This document shows, one piece after another, positions 32,504-36,788 of a stretch of DNA of 39,484 nucleotides. The notes under the pieces are model-generated. The model had not been told where the DNA came from and did no database searches. It worked only from the letters and a program-made list of their open reading frames with translations. The stretch is from assembly GCA_028287765.1 (NCBI GenBank), contig JAQBPA010000072.1, forward strand, positions 1 through 39,484, given 5' to 3'. Positions within the stretch are counted from its first letter, which is position 1, and each line of letters starts with the position of its first letter. This DNA is from Bacteriovoracaceae bacterium (GTDB lineage: Bacteria > Bdellovibrionota > UBA2394). Position numbers and translations under genes: made by a program.

Positions 32504-33361
32504 TTAACTTAATTTTAAAGTTAAAATAGTTTTCAATACTCTCTTTAATTTCTCATACGACGTAAGTCGTTTTGGATTTCCAAATCTCCAATATTTGATA
32601 GCGCCTTCGATATATATGGCCGCCATTAATTCTGCAGGTAAGCATTTGAAGGAATACGGTTCTGCTTCATTTCTAAATTCCATGGCTCGCTTAAAAAGCT
32701 CTTCTCGAATTTCATCTTTGCACATCTCCATTTTGCGGCCGGATAAAAATTCTTCGGGTACATAGGTGCGCTGATTTGCGGCGTCTTCATCAAGATCCCG
32801 CATTATATTTAAATATTGCAGGCACTTTCCCATGGGGAGTGAATACGGTGCAGCCTTGGGACCGTCAGCGCCGAGAATCGAGAGCACGGCTTCTCCGACG
32901 CAGCATGCAACCCCGTAAACGTAGCGATTGAGTTCATTCCATGTTTGAATATTTAATGTCTCCGTTAAATCCATTCGAACGCCGTCAATAATCCCGAGGA
33001 GTGAGGAATTCGAAATATGTAAGTCTCTCTTTTCGTCTAGAAATCGGTCCCAATACGGGTGGCCATTTTTTTGGCCGTCCTTCACCCAAGAAGCGAGTCG
33101 ATCGAGAAGTTCACTTCGCCTCGCGATGCTTAAGCCCTCCTGGTCAGAAATATCGTCGGCGAGTCGGCAGAATGCATAAAAATCAGTGAGCGCTTGCCGA
33201 CGCATTCTAGAGATGACAAAAAGAAAGGTAATTTGAAAATGACTTTTACCTTGGGCGTAAATAGTCGGATCAAAAGTTGTTGAGAAAGGATTCCATGAAT
33301 CAGAAAGAATTGGTGAACTCTGTTTCTCGCTCTTTTGCTTTGAGTTTACTGACGCTTCCAA
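32504..33361 (-). CDS. Squalene/phytoene synthase family protein (HpnC/HpnD-like)
   Basis: The prenyl-diphosphate head-to-head condensing enzyme has two Asp-rich motifs: FYAFCRLADDISD and YLNIMRDLDEDAANQRTYVPEEF; the N-terminal substrate helix is KSHFQITFLFVISRMRR. Family knowledge: such enzymes join two farnesyl diphosphates into presqualene diphosphate or squalene (hopanoids), or make phytoene. The start is uncertain: conserved sequence begins near 33270, but no ATG, GTG or TTG exists there. The nearest candidates are TTG at 33361 (chosen) and ATG at 33442, both inside the divergent neighbour. The track start at 33556 adds unlikely polar sequence. The partner gene lies head to head. Confidence 0.85.
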   Translation of the reverse strand: MEASVNSKQKSEKQSSPILSDSWNPFSTTFDPTIYAQGKSHFQITFLFVISRMRRQALTDFYAFCRLADDISDQEGLSIARRSELLDRLASWVKDGQKNGHPYWDRFLDEKRDLHISNSSLLGIIDGVRMDLTETLNIQTWNELNRYVYGVACCVGEAVLSILGADGPKAAPYSLPMGKCLQYLNIMRDLDEDAANQRTYVPEEFLSGRKMEMCKDEIREELFKRAMEFRNEAEPYSFKCLPAELMAAIYIEGAIKYWRFGNPKRLTSYEKLKRVLKTILTLKLS

Positions 33362-34239
33362 AATCGGAGCGAGCGGCGGTTGCGCAGACTTATTTAGTGG
33401 CGCGTTATGCGGATACTCTCGTGGACTCTGGCTCTTGGTCATCAGAGGAACGTGTATCTCACCTGGCGAGTTGGGAAAATGCAATTCTTCTGAAAAATGA
33501 AAATCTCTGGAAATTAAAGGGTTCTTTGGGAAAATTTCCCGAAAAGGACGCGGCATTTTTAGTTGAAGGGACGAATATTTTAAAATTCTTTAATAAACTT
33601 CCAGGAACACAAAATCAGTTCGGTTGTGAGGTCGTTAAAACTCTTATTCACGGAATGAAATGGGATTTAAGTACCTTTGCTGCTGCATCCAAATCCAACC
33701 CGACGTATGGAGTAAAAGAGCCCCAGGCGTTTGATAATTACTGTTATCTCATCGCCGGTTGTGTCGGAAGATATTGGGTAGAAATTTTTCGTCTTCCTCA
33801 AAATCTGGAGCTCCTGGCGGTGTCTTACGGAAAAGGTCTGCAGCGGATTAACATTTTAAGAGATGTAAAAGAAGATTGGATGAGAGGCCGAGTTTATTTG
33901 CCAAAAACTTTACTCGATTCGTTTGATCTTTCTGAGGGCGAGCCGTGGAAGAAGAATCGTTGGAACGAATTTTGCAAACAGTACATTCAGGAAACCAAAG
34001 CACTTTTGATTTATGGTGCTCACTTTTGCGATTCGATTCCCAAAGTTTCAATGCGTCTTAGGTTTGCTTCTATGATGCCGCTCATGATCGGTTTTGAAAC
34101 TTTGCGAAAGCTTGAGAAGGCGAGATCTTGGGAAGAGCCGACCAAGATCTCTCGACGGGAAGTAAAAAGATTAGCTATGGTTGCAGTGCTCAAAGTAATC
34201 TTTGGAAGGGGCATTACCTCGTGGACAAGGAGATTTTAA
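33295..34239 (+). CDS. Squalene/phytoene synthase family protein (second copy)
   Basis: The 314 residues start at ATG 33295 behind an excellent GAGAAAGGA ribosome site; the track uses a TTG 18 bp earlier. It opens VNSVSRSFALSLLTLPKSER with YLVARYADTLVD as the first Asp-rich motif, CYLIAGCVGRYWVEIF, and QRINILRDVKEDWMRGRVYLP as the second. The arrangement is closer to squalene synthase (farnesyl-diphosphate farnesyltransferase) than its neighbour is. Two divergent members of one family suggest consecutive or alternative steps, as HpnC and HpnD do in hopanoid synthesis, but no HpnE or cyclase is present here. It is followed after 1 bp by the cobalamin adenosyltransferase gene. Confidence 0.88.
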   Translation: MNQKELVNSVSRSFALSLLTLPKSERAAVAQTYLVARYADTLVDSGSWSSEERVSHLASWENAILLKNENLWKLKGSLGKFPEKDAAFLVEGTNILKFFNKLPGTQNQFGCEVVKTLIHGMKWDLSTFAAASKSNPTYGVKEPQAFDNYCYLIAGCVGRYWVEIFRLPQNLELLAVSYGKGLQRINILRDVKEDWMRGRVYLPKTLLDSFDLSEGEPWKKNRWNEFCKQYIQETKALLIYGAHFCDSIPKVSMRLRFASMMPLMIGFETLRKLEKARSWEEPTKISRREVKRLAMVAVLKVIFGRGITSWTRRF

Positions 34240-34240
34240 A

Positions 34241-34783
34241 ATGAAGATCTACACAAAAACAGGAGACGACGGAACGACAGGTCTGTTTTCTGGAAAGCGA
34301 GTTTCGAAGAGTTCTTCTTATATTGAAGCCTACGGAAATGTGGACGAGTTGAATTCATGGATTGGTTATTGTTTGAGCGGTTGTAAAGACAAAGAATTTC
34401 AGAAAGATCTTCTCCTCATTCAACACGATCTTCATACGGTGTGCGCGGATCTTGCGACACCGATAGATTCTAACGGAAAAATTTCTAGAGTGGGGCCCAA
34501 TCGTGCGACTCATTTAGAAAAATTGATCGATAAGTTTGAAATAGAATTGAGTCCACTTACCCGATTTATTTTGGCTGGCGGTACAGCTCTCTCGTCGCAA
34601 TTGCATATTGCGCGAACGGTTTGCAGAAGAGCAGAGCGATCTGTTTATCGTCATTCGGAGCAAGAAAAAGTAAATCATGAAGTGATTGTTTATTTGAATC
34701 GTCTTTCAGATTTACTTTTTGTCATGGCGAGAGTCGCGAACCATCGTGCCGGTGTTCAGGATGTTTTTTGGGATCAGGCCTAG
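34241..34783 (+). CDS. PduO-type ATP:cob(I)alamin adenosyltransferase
   Basis: The protein is 180 residues from the ATG at 34241, preceded by AAGGAG; the track start at 34202 lies inside the previous gene. Family motifs are IYTKTGDDGTTGLFSGKRV (ATP binding), EAYGNVDELNSWIGY and the helix-bundle signature ARTVCRRAERSVY...LNRLSDLLFVMAR. The enzyme transfers the 5'-deoxyadenosyl group of ATP to cob(I)alamin, making coenzyme B12. No B12 riboswitch precedes it and no B12-dependent enzyme is in view, although acyl-CoA pathways elsewhere in the window (leucine breakdown) suggest methylmalonyl-CoA mutase as a possible client. Confidence 0.94.
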   Translation: MKIYTKTGDDGTTGLFSGKRVSKSSSYIEAYGNVDELNSWIGYCLSGCKDKEFQKDLLLIQHDLHTVCADLATPIDSNGKISRVGPNRATHLEKLIDKFEIELSPLTRFILAGGTALSSQLHIARTVCRRAERSVYRHSEQEKVNHEVIVYLNRLSDLLFVMARVANHRAGVQDVFWDQA

Positions 34784-34790
34784 AAATCTT

Positions 34791-35555
34791 TTATTTCAAT
34801 TCTCGAAGGATATGACTGCAGCGATATTTCTCAAGTTGTGCTTCAGCCAGGGCAGGCGAGAAATTTTTTAATCGTTCTTCACTTCCTAAGTATTTAAAAC
34901 ACTGATTTTTAATTCCAACGGAATCGAGCGCATCTCGGACACTGAGGGTATGTTTCCAAAGGTCATCGACAAAAATGATCTGACCGGGCTTAAATTTTTG
35001 ATCGGATAAAAATTTTACAAGGACTTCGCCCTTACTCTCATTTCCTGCAAAGAGAATCCCACCTCTCAGGCCGACAGCCTCATTTAAATGATGATTCCAG
35101 GCATTTTGCGTTCTCAAAAAAGGCTTCCATTTTAATTTAGCTTTTCGAAGTTGCTGTTCGGTTCTCTCCGATATCCAGAGAGCACGCGCTGTAAGGCCTA
35201 AAATTCTGTACGCTTTTTTTTCGACCTTTTTTAAAAGGCGAGGAGCTTCGGGTTCAATCGGATTGACGTCGATATCAAATTGGAGCCGACTCCAAACATG
35301 ATTGAGAAGATTGAGTGCACTTTTTTTATCATAGCCTTCAGCGATAAGTTTCTTTGAAAGATATTTATACCAAGGTGAATGACCAAAATCTTCAACCGGC
35401 TCGATCAGCGTTTCATCTAAATCGGAAACGATGAGCGTTTGAGAGTCGATCGAATGAAACGCATCTTCCAATCGATAGATCTCCGTCACGTCGACCGCGT
35501 ATAAGGAATTTGAAAAAAAGAAAACGGAGATAAATATTTTTTCGAGATGAGACAT
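34791..35555 (-). CDS. Secreted DUF2608 HAD-type phosphatase under TPP riboswitch control
   Basis: The 254 residues have a short hydrophobic signal peptide (KIFISVFFFSNSLYA). HAD motifs are all present: LIVSDLDETLIEPVEDFGHS (nucleophile Asp45 and Asp47), motif II LGLTARA, a Lys in NESKGEVLVKF and motif IV IIFVDDLWKH. The EPVEDFG/WYKYL segment is DUF2608-like. Family knowledge: members are exported acid-phosphatase-like HADs of unknown substrate. A TPP riboswitch occupies its leader and can pair with the ribosome-binding site AAAGGAAAG. I infer a periplasmic phosphatase that strips phosphate from thiamine mono- or diphosphate to allow uptake of thiamine when TPP is low. That function is inference from the regulation. 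Confidence 0.88.
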   Translation of the reverse strand: MSHLEKIFISVFFFSNSLYAVDVTEIYRLEDAFHSIDSQTLIVSDLDETLIEPVEDFGHSPWYKYLSKKLIAEGYDKKSALNLLNHVWSRLQFDIDVNPIEPEAPRLLKKVEKKAYRILGLTARALWISERTEQQLRKAKLKWKPFLRTQNAWNHHLNEAVGLRGGILFAGNESKGEVLVKFLSDQKFKPGQIIFVDDLWKHTLSVRDALDSVGIKNQCFKYLGSEERLKNFSPALAEAQLEKYRCSHILRELK

Positions 35556-35557
35556 TT

Positions 35558-35647
35558 CTTTCCTTTCGCCAGTATGATCTGGATCAAGTGATAGGGTCGC
35601 TCGACATTCGAGCCTCTCAGCCGCCGCTCGCGGCTCCCCTAAGAAAG
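35558..35647 (-). promoter_or_regulatory. TPP riboswitch (THI element), probably translational
   Basis: Read on the minus strand the leader carries GGGGAGCC, GGCTGAGAGG, GACCCTATC and then TTGATCCAGATCATACTGGCG, which match in order the TPP aptamer core GGGG-GC, CTGAGA, ACCC and TGATC...GCG. The P4/P5 helix CCAG/CTGG is compensated relative to the common CTGG/CCAG. An added hairpin GCTCGA-ATG-TCGAGC lies in the P3 region. The outer helix pairs 5' CTTTC (35647-35643) with GAAAG (35662-35658), which is part of the ribosome-binding site just before the ATG at 35555, so ligand binding should block translation. Confidence 0.92.
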
Positions 35648-35652
35648 TAATT

Positions 35653-36102
35653 TTAGTTTTTAATTTTTTGCCAACTTAGGCGGACAATTCCCGCTTTTCC
35701 TTTTCCGGTAAGTGTAATTTTATTTCCATTTCGGCTCACTTCTCGTTCTAAATCTTTTCCAATCCAGTCAAGTTTTGAAGAATTTAAAACATGGTGAATA
35801 ACTTTATTTTCTTTGGTGGAGTACTGGCCAGAATAAAAAACCATTTCATCTGGATCATCGCTTCTCTCAGAGGAACTGCCCGCTTTCATACAATTGATTC
35901 CAACAGCCATTGTACTCTCGCGAGTGTAAGTGATCATTCCGTCGGGAGAAGAGCAACGTGGTTTCCAATTTCCTTTGTCGTCCTGTTTTTCGTACGTGAG
36001 AAGCTCCCAACTTCCGATCATGTCCTTTTGAGAAAGTGCGTAACTTTTGGCACTAATAAAAAATATAAAAAGCGCGGGAATAAAAACGATTAATTTTTTC
36101 AT
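35653..36102 (-). CDS. Secreted lipocalin-like protein
   Basis: The protein is 149 residues from the ATG at 36102, giving a signal peptide KKLIVFIPALFIFFISAKSYA; the track start at 36144 would put 14 polar residues before it. The mature part follows the lipocalin-like (Lipocalin_5) pattern: MIGSWELLTYEKQDDKGNW, DGMITYTRESTMAVGINC, EMVFYSGQYSTKENKVIHHVLN and a final strand IVRLSWQKI. Such domains form small beta barrels that may bind hydrophobic ligands. It is predicted periplasmic. There is no strong ribosome site. It stands alone, 50 bp from the exonuclease gene upstream and 5 bp from the riboswitch downstream. Confidence 0.75.
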   Translation of the reverse strand: MKKLIVFIPALFIFFISAKSYALSQKDMIGSWELLTYEKQDDKGNWKPRCSSPDGMITYTRESTMAVGINCMKAGSSSERSDDPDEMVFYSGQYSTKENKVIHHVLNSSKLDWIGKDLEREVSRNGNKITLTGKGKAGIVRLSWQKIKN

Positions 36103-36152
36103 ATCTACGACGCTGCCAAGGGTTTTAATTGGCGGCAAGGTCATTTATTCTG

Positions 36153-36788
36153 CTAATTAAAAAGACTCCGAGTCTTAGGTTTTTCAGTTTTTACCAAAGT
36201 CTCGGCTCGAATAAAGGCGCTTTCAATTTGAGGAAGGCCGCTAATTTGTTGCTTCTCTAACATCTTAATAAACTCAATCAGGGCGAGAGCTGTATAGCGG
36301 CTATCGTCGATCGATCGGTGCCGATCGCCTGTTTTGGCAATCCCAAGGCGCGACATGATTTTATCTAAGTTATGAGACGTCTCATATTGAAAGATCATTT
36401 TGGAGAGGCCGATGGTATCGACAACAACGGTTTGTTTAAGCGGCATTTGAAGCTGCTTAAGCTTGTTCACGATAAAGCCGAGATCGAAGCGGGCATTTTG
36501 CGCGACCCAGATCCTATTTCCGGCGAACTGTAGAAACTGAGGGATGACGGTATGAATTGTAGGCGCATCGGCGACATCTTTATCTTTAATGCCGTGAATA
36601 GCCGTAGCTGAAGGTGGAATGGGCTTTCCGGGGTTTACAAGGCTATGGAAGGTCTTCTCGACGCACTGCATACCTTCGACATGAATGGCACCGATTTCGA
36701 TGATTTCATCACCTTGGTCTGGGTAGAGACCGGTTGTTTCTAAGTCAAAAACTACGTAACTCAAATCCTTAAGAGCCATTATATTCAT
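36153..36788 (-). CDS. DnaQ-family 3'-5' exonuclease
   Basis: The 211-residue DEDDh exonuclease has ExoI VVFDLETTGLYPDQGDEIIEIG, ExoII in WVAQNARFDLGFIV and ExoIII DRHRSIDDSRYTALAL (His and Asp). It resembles the Pol III epsilon-like proofreading subunit and also small processive RNases; lacking the epsilon C-terminal alpha-binding tail pattern, it may be a stand-alone DNA exonuclease. The ATG at 36788 has AAAGG seven bases upstream; a second ATG at 36779 is possible. It is divergent from the CNNM-type gene with promoter elements between. Confidence 0.9.
   Translation of the reverse strand: MNIMALKDLSYVVFDLETTGLYPDQGDEIIEIGAIHVEGMQCVEKTFHSLVNPGKPIPPSATAIHGIKDKDVADAPTIHTVIPQFLQFAGNRIWVAQNARFDLGFIVNKLKQLQMPLKQTVVVDTIGLSKMIFQYETSHNLDKIMSRLGIAKTGDRHRSIDDSRYTALALIEFIKMLEKQQISGLPQIESAFIRAETLVKTEKPKTRSLFN

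Follow-up and report, generated by a model that had tools for sequence, protein, structure and literature searches.

What might an apparently exported phosphatase-like protein be doing under the control of a TPP riboswitch? This question is raised by a locus in the window, by which we mean the whole 39,484-nucleotide stretch of DNA analysed here (from a Bacteriovoracaceae bacterium, referred to below as the host), where a TPP aptamer and the gene of a DUF2608/HAD-superfamily protein stand together on the minus strand. TPP-regulated genes in 255 bacterial genomes have been sorted into biosynthesis and transport, and the word “phosphatase” is absent from the main text of that survey (PMC3766115). 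In the open-access literature we found neither a paper naming DUF2608 nor a description of a bacterial TPP-riboswitch-controlled exported phosphatase.

The aptamer itself is complete. A cmscan search of the entire window gave an RF00059 match at 35544-35650 of the minus strand, which scored 72.1 bits where the gathering score is 54.3 (E=1.8e-12), and in the alignment this match spans model positions 1-105, i.e. the full length of the family model. The ligand-binding core is kept (GGGG, CUGAGA, ACCCU, UGAUCC and GCG are all intact), and among 28 aligned aptamers of the phylum (that of the window and 27 others) the window aptamer shows no departure at any column with a conservation of 90% or more. 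The initial annotation had described a complete TPP aptamer core on the minus strand and named 35540-35660 as the stretch to search, and the score and the conserved columns agree with it. As the minimum free energy of the isolated aptamer has no clear advantage over that of shuffled sequences (z of about -1.2 to -1.7), the case for a riboswitch is built on the covariance model and not on folding energy. On this basis it is very likely that we are dealing with a genuine TPP riboswitch, acting on the DUF2608/HAD gene at 35555..34791 of the same strand.

The way in which it would act is suggested by the anatomy of the start site. In the RF00059 pairing, the P1 stem is formed by 35645-35641 with 35560-35556; its 5′ arm (UUCUU, 35641..35645) thus pairs with a 3′ arm (AAGAA, 35556..35560) which is at the same time the entire spacer between the Shine-Dalgarno sequence and the ATG that starts at 35555. 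The Shine-Dalgarno sequence (AAGGA, 35561..35565) also lies within the aptamer: three of its bases lie in the 3′ arm of the outer 3′-side stem, and the other two in the conserved GA that joins this stem to P1. The aptamer had been described as lying directly before the gene, which is correct as to adjacency but incomplete, since it also overlaps the ribosome binding site, the spacer and the start codon. With the Shine-Dalgarno sequence and spacer inside the aptamer, bound TPP should block translation directly; the start site should be buried once P1 closes on TPP, and a separate expression platform would be unneeded. There is no space for a terminator between the aptamer and the ATG. This layout is the standard one in the phylum, as 39 of the 50 TPP riboswitches that we surveyed there have a start codon at the 3′ end of the aptamer. 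The genes that follow these 50 riboswitches include 17 sodium:solute symporters, 9 TonB-dependent receptors and 5 ThiC-like, 5 ThiM-like and 4 ThiB-like genes (one symporter was confirmed with Pfam and the other groups were named from their sequences). The window copy shares both aptamer and layout with other RF00059 switches that exert translational control at the start codon, and differs from them in controlling an apparently exported phosphatase.

Upstream of the riboswitch, on the same strand, are the genes of a lipocalin-like exported protein (35653..36144, PF13924, E=3.6e-14) and of a DnaQ-like exonuclease (36153..36788, PF00929, E=4.6e-39). The stop codon of the lipocalin-like gene is located 2 nt before the aptamer, and only 8 nt separate this gene from the DnaQ-like one. 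Such spacings make the riboswitch intercistronic, probably acting on a read-through transcript, at the head of which the DnaQ-like exonuclease gene would probably stand, with the lipocalin-like gene, the riboswitch and the DUF2608 gene following it. Comparably tight spacing to the preceding gene was seen at a few other TPP riboswitches. On the other side, the convergent neighbour is the cobalamin adenosyltransferase gene cobA (34241..34783, plus strand, PF01923), which is the conserved anchor of this slot in relatives. Beyond it, at 32504-34239, there are two squalene/phytoene synthase-like open reading frames on opposite strands whose 5′ ends overlap as mechanically called; their true starts are probably further in.

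The content of the slot between cobA and dnaQ (34784-36150) is variable within the family. It holds the lipocalin-like gene, the riboswitch and the DUF2608 gene in the host, a different gene in one relative (G001), and short gaps with almost nothing in two others (G002 and G003). Because both flanks are syntenic with the relatives (cobA on one side, dnaQ and a gene for a CBS-domain protein on the other), we consider an assembly artefact unlikely.

The product of the controlled gene, P0001 (34791..35555, minus strand, 254 aa), is a clear member of the DUF2608 family, scoring 129.6 bits against PF11019, whose curated cut-off is 22.6 (E=1.8e-37). It carries motifs I-IV of the HAD superfamily (DxDxT, T, K, DD) in full, namely D45, D47 and T49 (DLDET), T122 (LTAR), K175, and D197 and D198 (FVDD). 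When 36 DUF2608 proteins are aligned, no variation is seen at D45, D47, T49 and K175, and hardly any at T122, D197 and D198; the claim of a DUF2608/HAD protein with intact catalytic aspartates is thus confirmed by both the profile and the alignment. The AlphaFold model (mean pLDDT 89.9) has a HAD fold, and its matches in the PDB are HAD phosphatases, class C acid phosphatases among them, although with low TM-scores of about 0.35-0.45. We also considered whether P0001 could be a class B/C acid phosphatase (PF03767; AphA, e(P4)), and rejected this assignment, as the match was weak and stayed under the cut-off (17.5 vs 27 bits). No feature specific to a particular substrate was identified in the protein. 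Its first 20 residues (35496..35555, ending in NSLYA), read as MSHLEKIFISVFFFSNSLYA and followed by VD, resemble by eye a Sec signal peptide cut before VD, and most of the DUF2608 relatives in the 36-sequence alignment have similar N-termini; we thus take the protein to be apparently exported.

The closest relatives of P0001 that we found share only about 32-35% identity with it, and a scan of viral contigs yielded none. At the level of structure, the best viral matches to the model were uncharacterised or putative secreted proteins of Tupanvirus, Pithovirus and Yasminevirus, with TM-scores of about 0.65-0.77, so that these giant-virus proteins are closer to P0001 in fold than any PDB entry.

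What use the host might have for such a protein is suggested by its thiamine metabolism. ThiC was found in none of the five family genomes sampled (the host included), ThiE in none of them save for one marginal match in G001, and a bona fide ThiL again in none, all matches to the ThiL profile being under the curated cut-off; that of the host sits in a 770-aa frame, a size as expected for PurL. As the host assembly is 76% complete, the absence of thiC, thiE and thiL leans on the relatives. Thiamine pyrophosphokinase (TPK), on the other hand, is present in four of the five genomes, including the host. The host is thus apparently a thiamine auxotroph, unable to make vitamin B1, at least as judged from its gene content and that of its relatives. 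Without ThiL, TMP would have no evident use in the cell, and free thiamine would be needed. Extracellular thiamine can be phosphorylated, whereas it is the unphosphorylated vitamin that one expects PnuC-family carriers and TPK to accept.

Exactly one other TPP riboswitch was detected in the host genome (C18:3570-3677, 61.1 bits), and it overlaps the start of a gene for a 221-aa PnuC-family protein (PF04973, E=9.7e-49; TIGR01528, 116 bits). TIGR01528 names this transporter as the nicotinamide riboside carrier PnuC, and the sole argument for thiamine is its riboswitch. PnuT of Bacteroides, which carries thiamine, belongs to the PnuC family (PMC5613172), and we infer that the 221-aa protein is a PnuT-like thiamine transporter. 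Another genome of the same family has a second TPP riboswitch of 62.1 bits, and the 387-aa open reading frame whose start it overlaps (L070:1105-2268, G003:C66) has no Pfam match.

Taken together, the lack of thiC and thiL, the presence of TPK and the other TPP riboswitch before a PnuC-family gene strengthen the view that P0001 belongs to a thiamine-salvage regulon. An exported phosphatase would also fit the gap left by a missing ThiL and a carrier expected to move the unphosphorylated vitamin. We thus propose that P0001 frees thiamine from thiamine phosphates for salvage, with its substrate, its export and the ligand of the transporter all inferred, and we put the probability of this reading at about 0.6. 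In the proposed scheme, when TPP is plentiful in the cytoplasm, the aptamer would be bound and P1 shut, the Shine-Dalgarno sequence and spacer would be sequestered, and no P0001 would be made. Under TPP shortage, the start site would open, P0001 would be made and exported, and thiamine would be freed outside the inner membrane by its hydrolysis of TMP and/or TPP. The PnuT-like transporter, under the other TPP riboswitch, would then import the thiamine, and TPK would turn it into TPP. That the complete scheme, i.e. a TPP-repressed exported phosphatase with PnuT-like uptake and TPK, operates in this thiamine auxotroph seems to us probable to the same degree.

Parts of this scheme have precedents in other organisms. 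PHO3 and PMU3 of yeasts are histidine phosphatases and not HAD enzymes, while the Haemophilus protein Hel is of the HAD type. PHO3 is a thiamine-repressed periplasmic phosphatase that converts TPP into thiamine for uptake (PMC4807840), and PMU3, which evolved in C. glabrata, is a thiamine pyrophosphatase critical for the use of external thiamine (PMC10246790). In both cases, as proposed for P0001, an external phosphatase supplies a thiamine transporter under thiamine shortage (PMC4807840, PMC10246790), but control is exerted by transcription factors in the yeasts and by a riboswitch here. In Haemophilus, something similar is done for NAD: the exported NadN and Hel proteins make nicotinamide riboside, which enters via PnuC, so that, as in our scheme, dephosphorylation by an exported phosphatase (Hel, or e(P4)) precedes uptake by a PnuC-family carrier (PMC10694654). 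The vitamin is nevertheless a different one, nicotinamide riboside, no TPP riboswitch takes part, and P0001 falls below the PF03767 cut-off. The pnuT-tnr3 and OMthi thiamine-uptake loci of Bacteroides resemble the host in that a thiamine transporter of the PnuC family, controlled by a TPP riboswitch, is accompanied by a thiamine-phosphorylating enzyme, but differ in that the text describing them mentions no phosphatase (PMC5613172). There is about an even chance, in our estimation, that P0001 is a bacterial counterpart of PHO3, acting together with TPK and a transporter of the PnuT type, and that a function has here been found for a DUF2608 protein for the first time.

It had also been proposed that the locus gives a function to the DUF2608 family as a whole, and this did not survive comparison with other genomes. 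In the same phylum, 81 of 369 genomes have DUF2608 and 117 have a TPP riboswitch, yet among the matches listed there is no further pair of the two nearer than about 18 kb (in G189). DUF2608 occurs in 162 of 234 genomes of a Chlamydiota-type set (the G375 group), where it is often present in multiple copies per genome, and a TPP riboswitch in 100; among the matches listed, which for DUF2608 were the stronger ones, and with riboswitch searches run under stricter filters, we found no credible linkage in this set either. In G438, a riboswitch match does occur at a distance of about 3 kb from a DUF2608 gene, but it is sub-threshold (30.5 bits) and on the opposite strand. Direct scans of about 50 DUF2608 genes and their flanks showed no TPP riboswitch, and at about 85 TPP riboswitch loci no other DUF2608 gene was located downstream. 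Six-frame translations of the riboswitch loci gave two matches to the DUF2608 profile, the window gene and a fragment at L137; the fragment was rejected as a second case because it lies on the opposite strand, outside the control of its riboswitch. The P0001 gene is absent from the four family relatives.

A family-wide link between DUF2608 and the TPP riboswitch can thus be set aside, the association having been found in the host genome only: P0001 is a clear profile member with its catalytic residues and an apparent export signal, but a TPP riboswitch was seen to control none of the other members examined. It looks like the host lineage recruited one DUF2608 gene locally, and given the frequency of DUF2608 in the G375 group, the main role of the family must lie elsewhere than in TPP-regulated salvage. 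As to the initial annotation, the metabolism of the family and the riboswitch of the PnuC-family gene strengthen the idea that P0001 forms part of a salvage regulon, with thiamine phosphates as plausible substrates; a function common to DUF2608 proteins is not supported.

Among the other TPP riboswitches that came up are some overlapping the starts of small, apparently exported proteins of 121 and 166 aa without Pfam matches (L099, G118:C63, and L102, G015:C31, respectively), which are possible further unrecognised parts of thiamine salvage. At G441:C213:1301-1651, two TPP riboswitches on opposite strands stand back to back, with about 160 nt between them.

That the riboswitch-DUF2608 pairing occurs in one genome and that HAD phosphatases are commonly promiscuous is evidence against the salvage scheme, and each of these facts lends itself to another explanation. 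The promiscuity would suit a protein which is TPP-regulated and exported, but which acts on some other phosphate ester of use when thiamine is short, such as nucleotides or phosphorylated HMP or thiazole, or which is a broad scavenging acid phosphatase; the non-specific class C acid phosphatases among the nearest solved folds and the weak match to the class B/C profile point in the same direction. However, for a general phosphatase one would expect phosphate control and not a TPP riboswitch, and since ThiE was not found in the host (with one marginal match in a relative), phosphorylated precursors of thiamine would be of no evident use. We find this possibility unlikely.

The restriction to one genome might in turn mean that the neighbourhood is a matter of chance, the riboswitch being real but having lost its original thiamine gene, or having been captured by a thiamine-unrelated DUF2608 gene in a variable slot. 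The relatives lack the cassette at this position, and DUF2608 has no thiamine link elsewhere, both of which agree with such a history. Still, the intact aptamer overlaps exactly the Shine-Dalgarno sequence and start codon of P0001, an orphaned or decaying element would not be expected to retain all conserved columns, and the gene encodes an apparently exported product in an organism that needs external thiamine; chance thus appears quite improbable to us. It is also conceivable that P0001 is catalytically idle and serves as an exported protein that binds thiamine or its phosphates and feeds the transporter, for PHO3 of yeast is also described as a soluble thiamine-binding protein in titles cited in PMC4807840. 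Every HAD catalytic residue of P0001 is intact, which makes an idle binder highly improbable.

If the proposed salvage function of P0001 is true, one DUF2608 protein would gain a directly testable substrate, while the family overall would stay unexplained. A TPP-controlled phosphatase would then be the missing outside step in bacteria that have neither the biosynthesis of thiamine nor ThiL, and the TPP regulon would reach beyond synthesis and transport.
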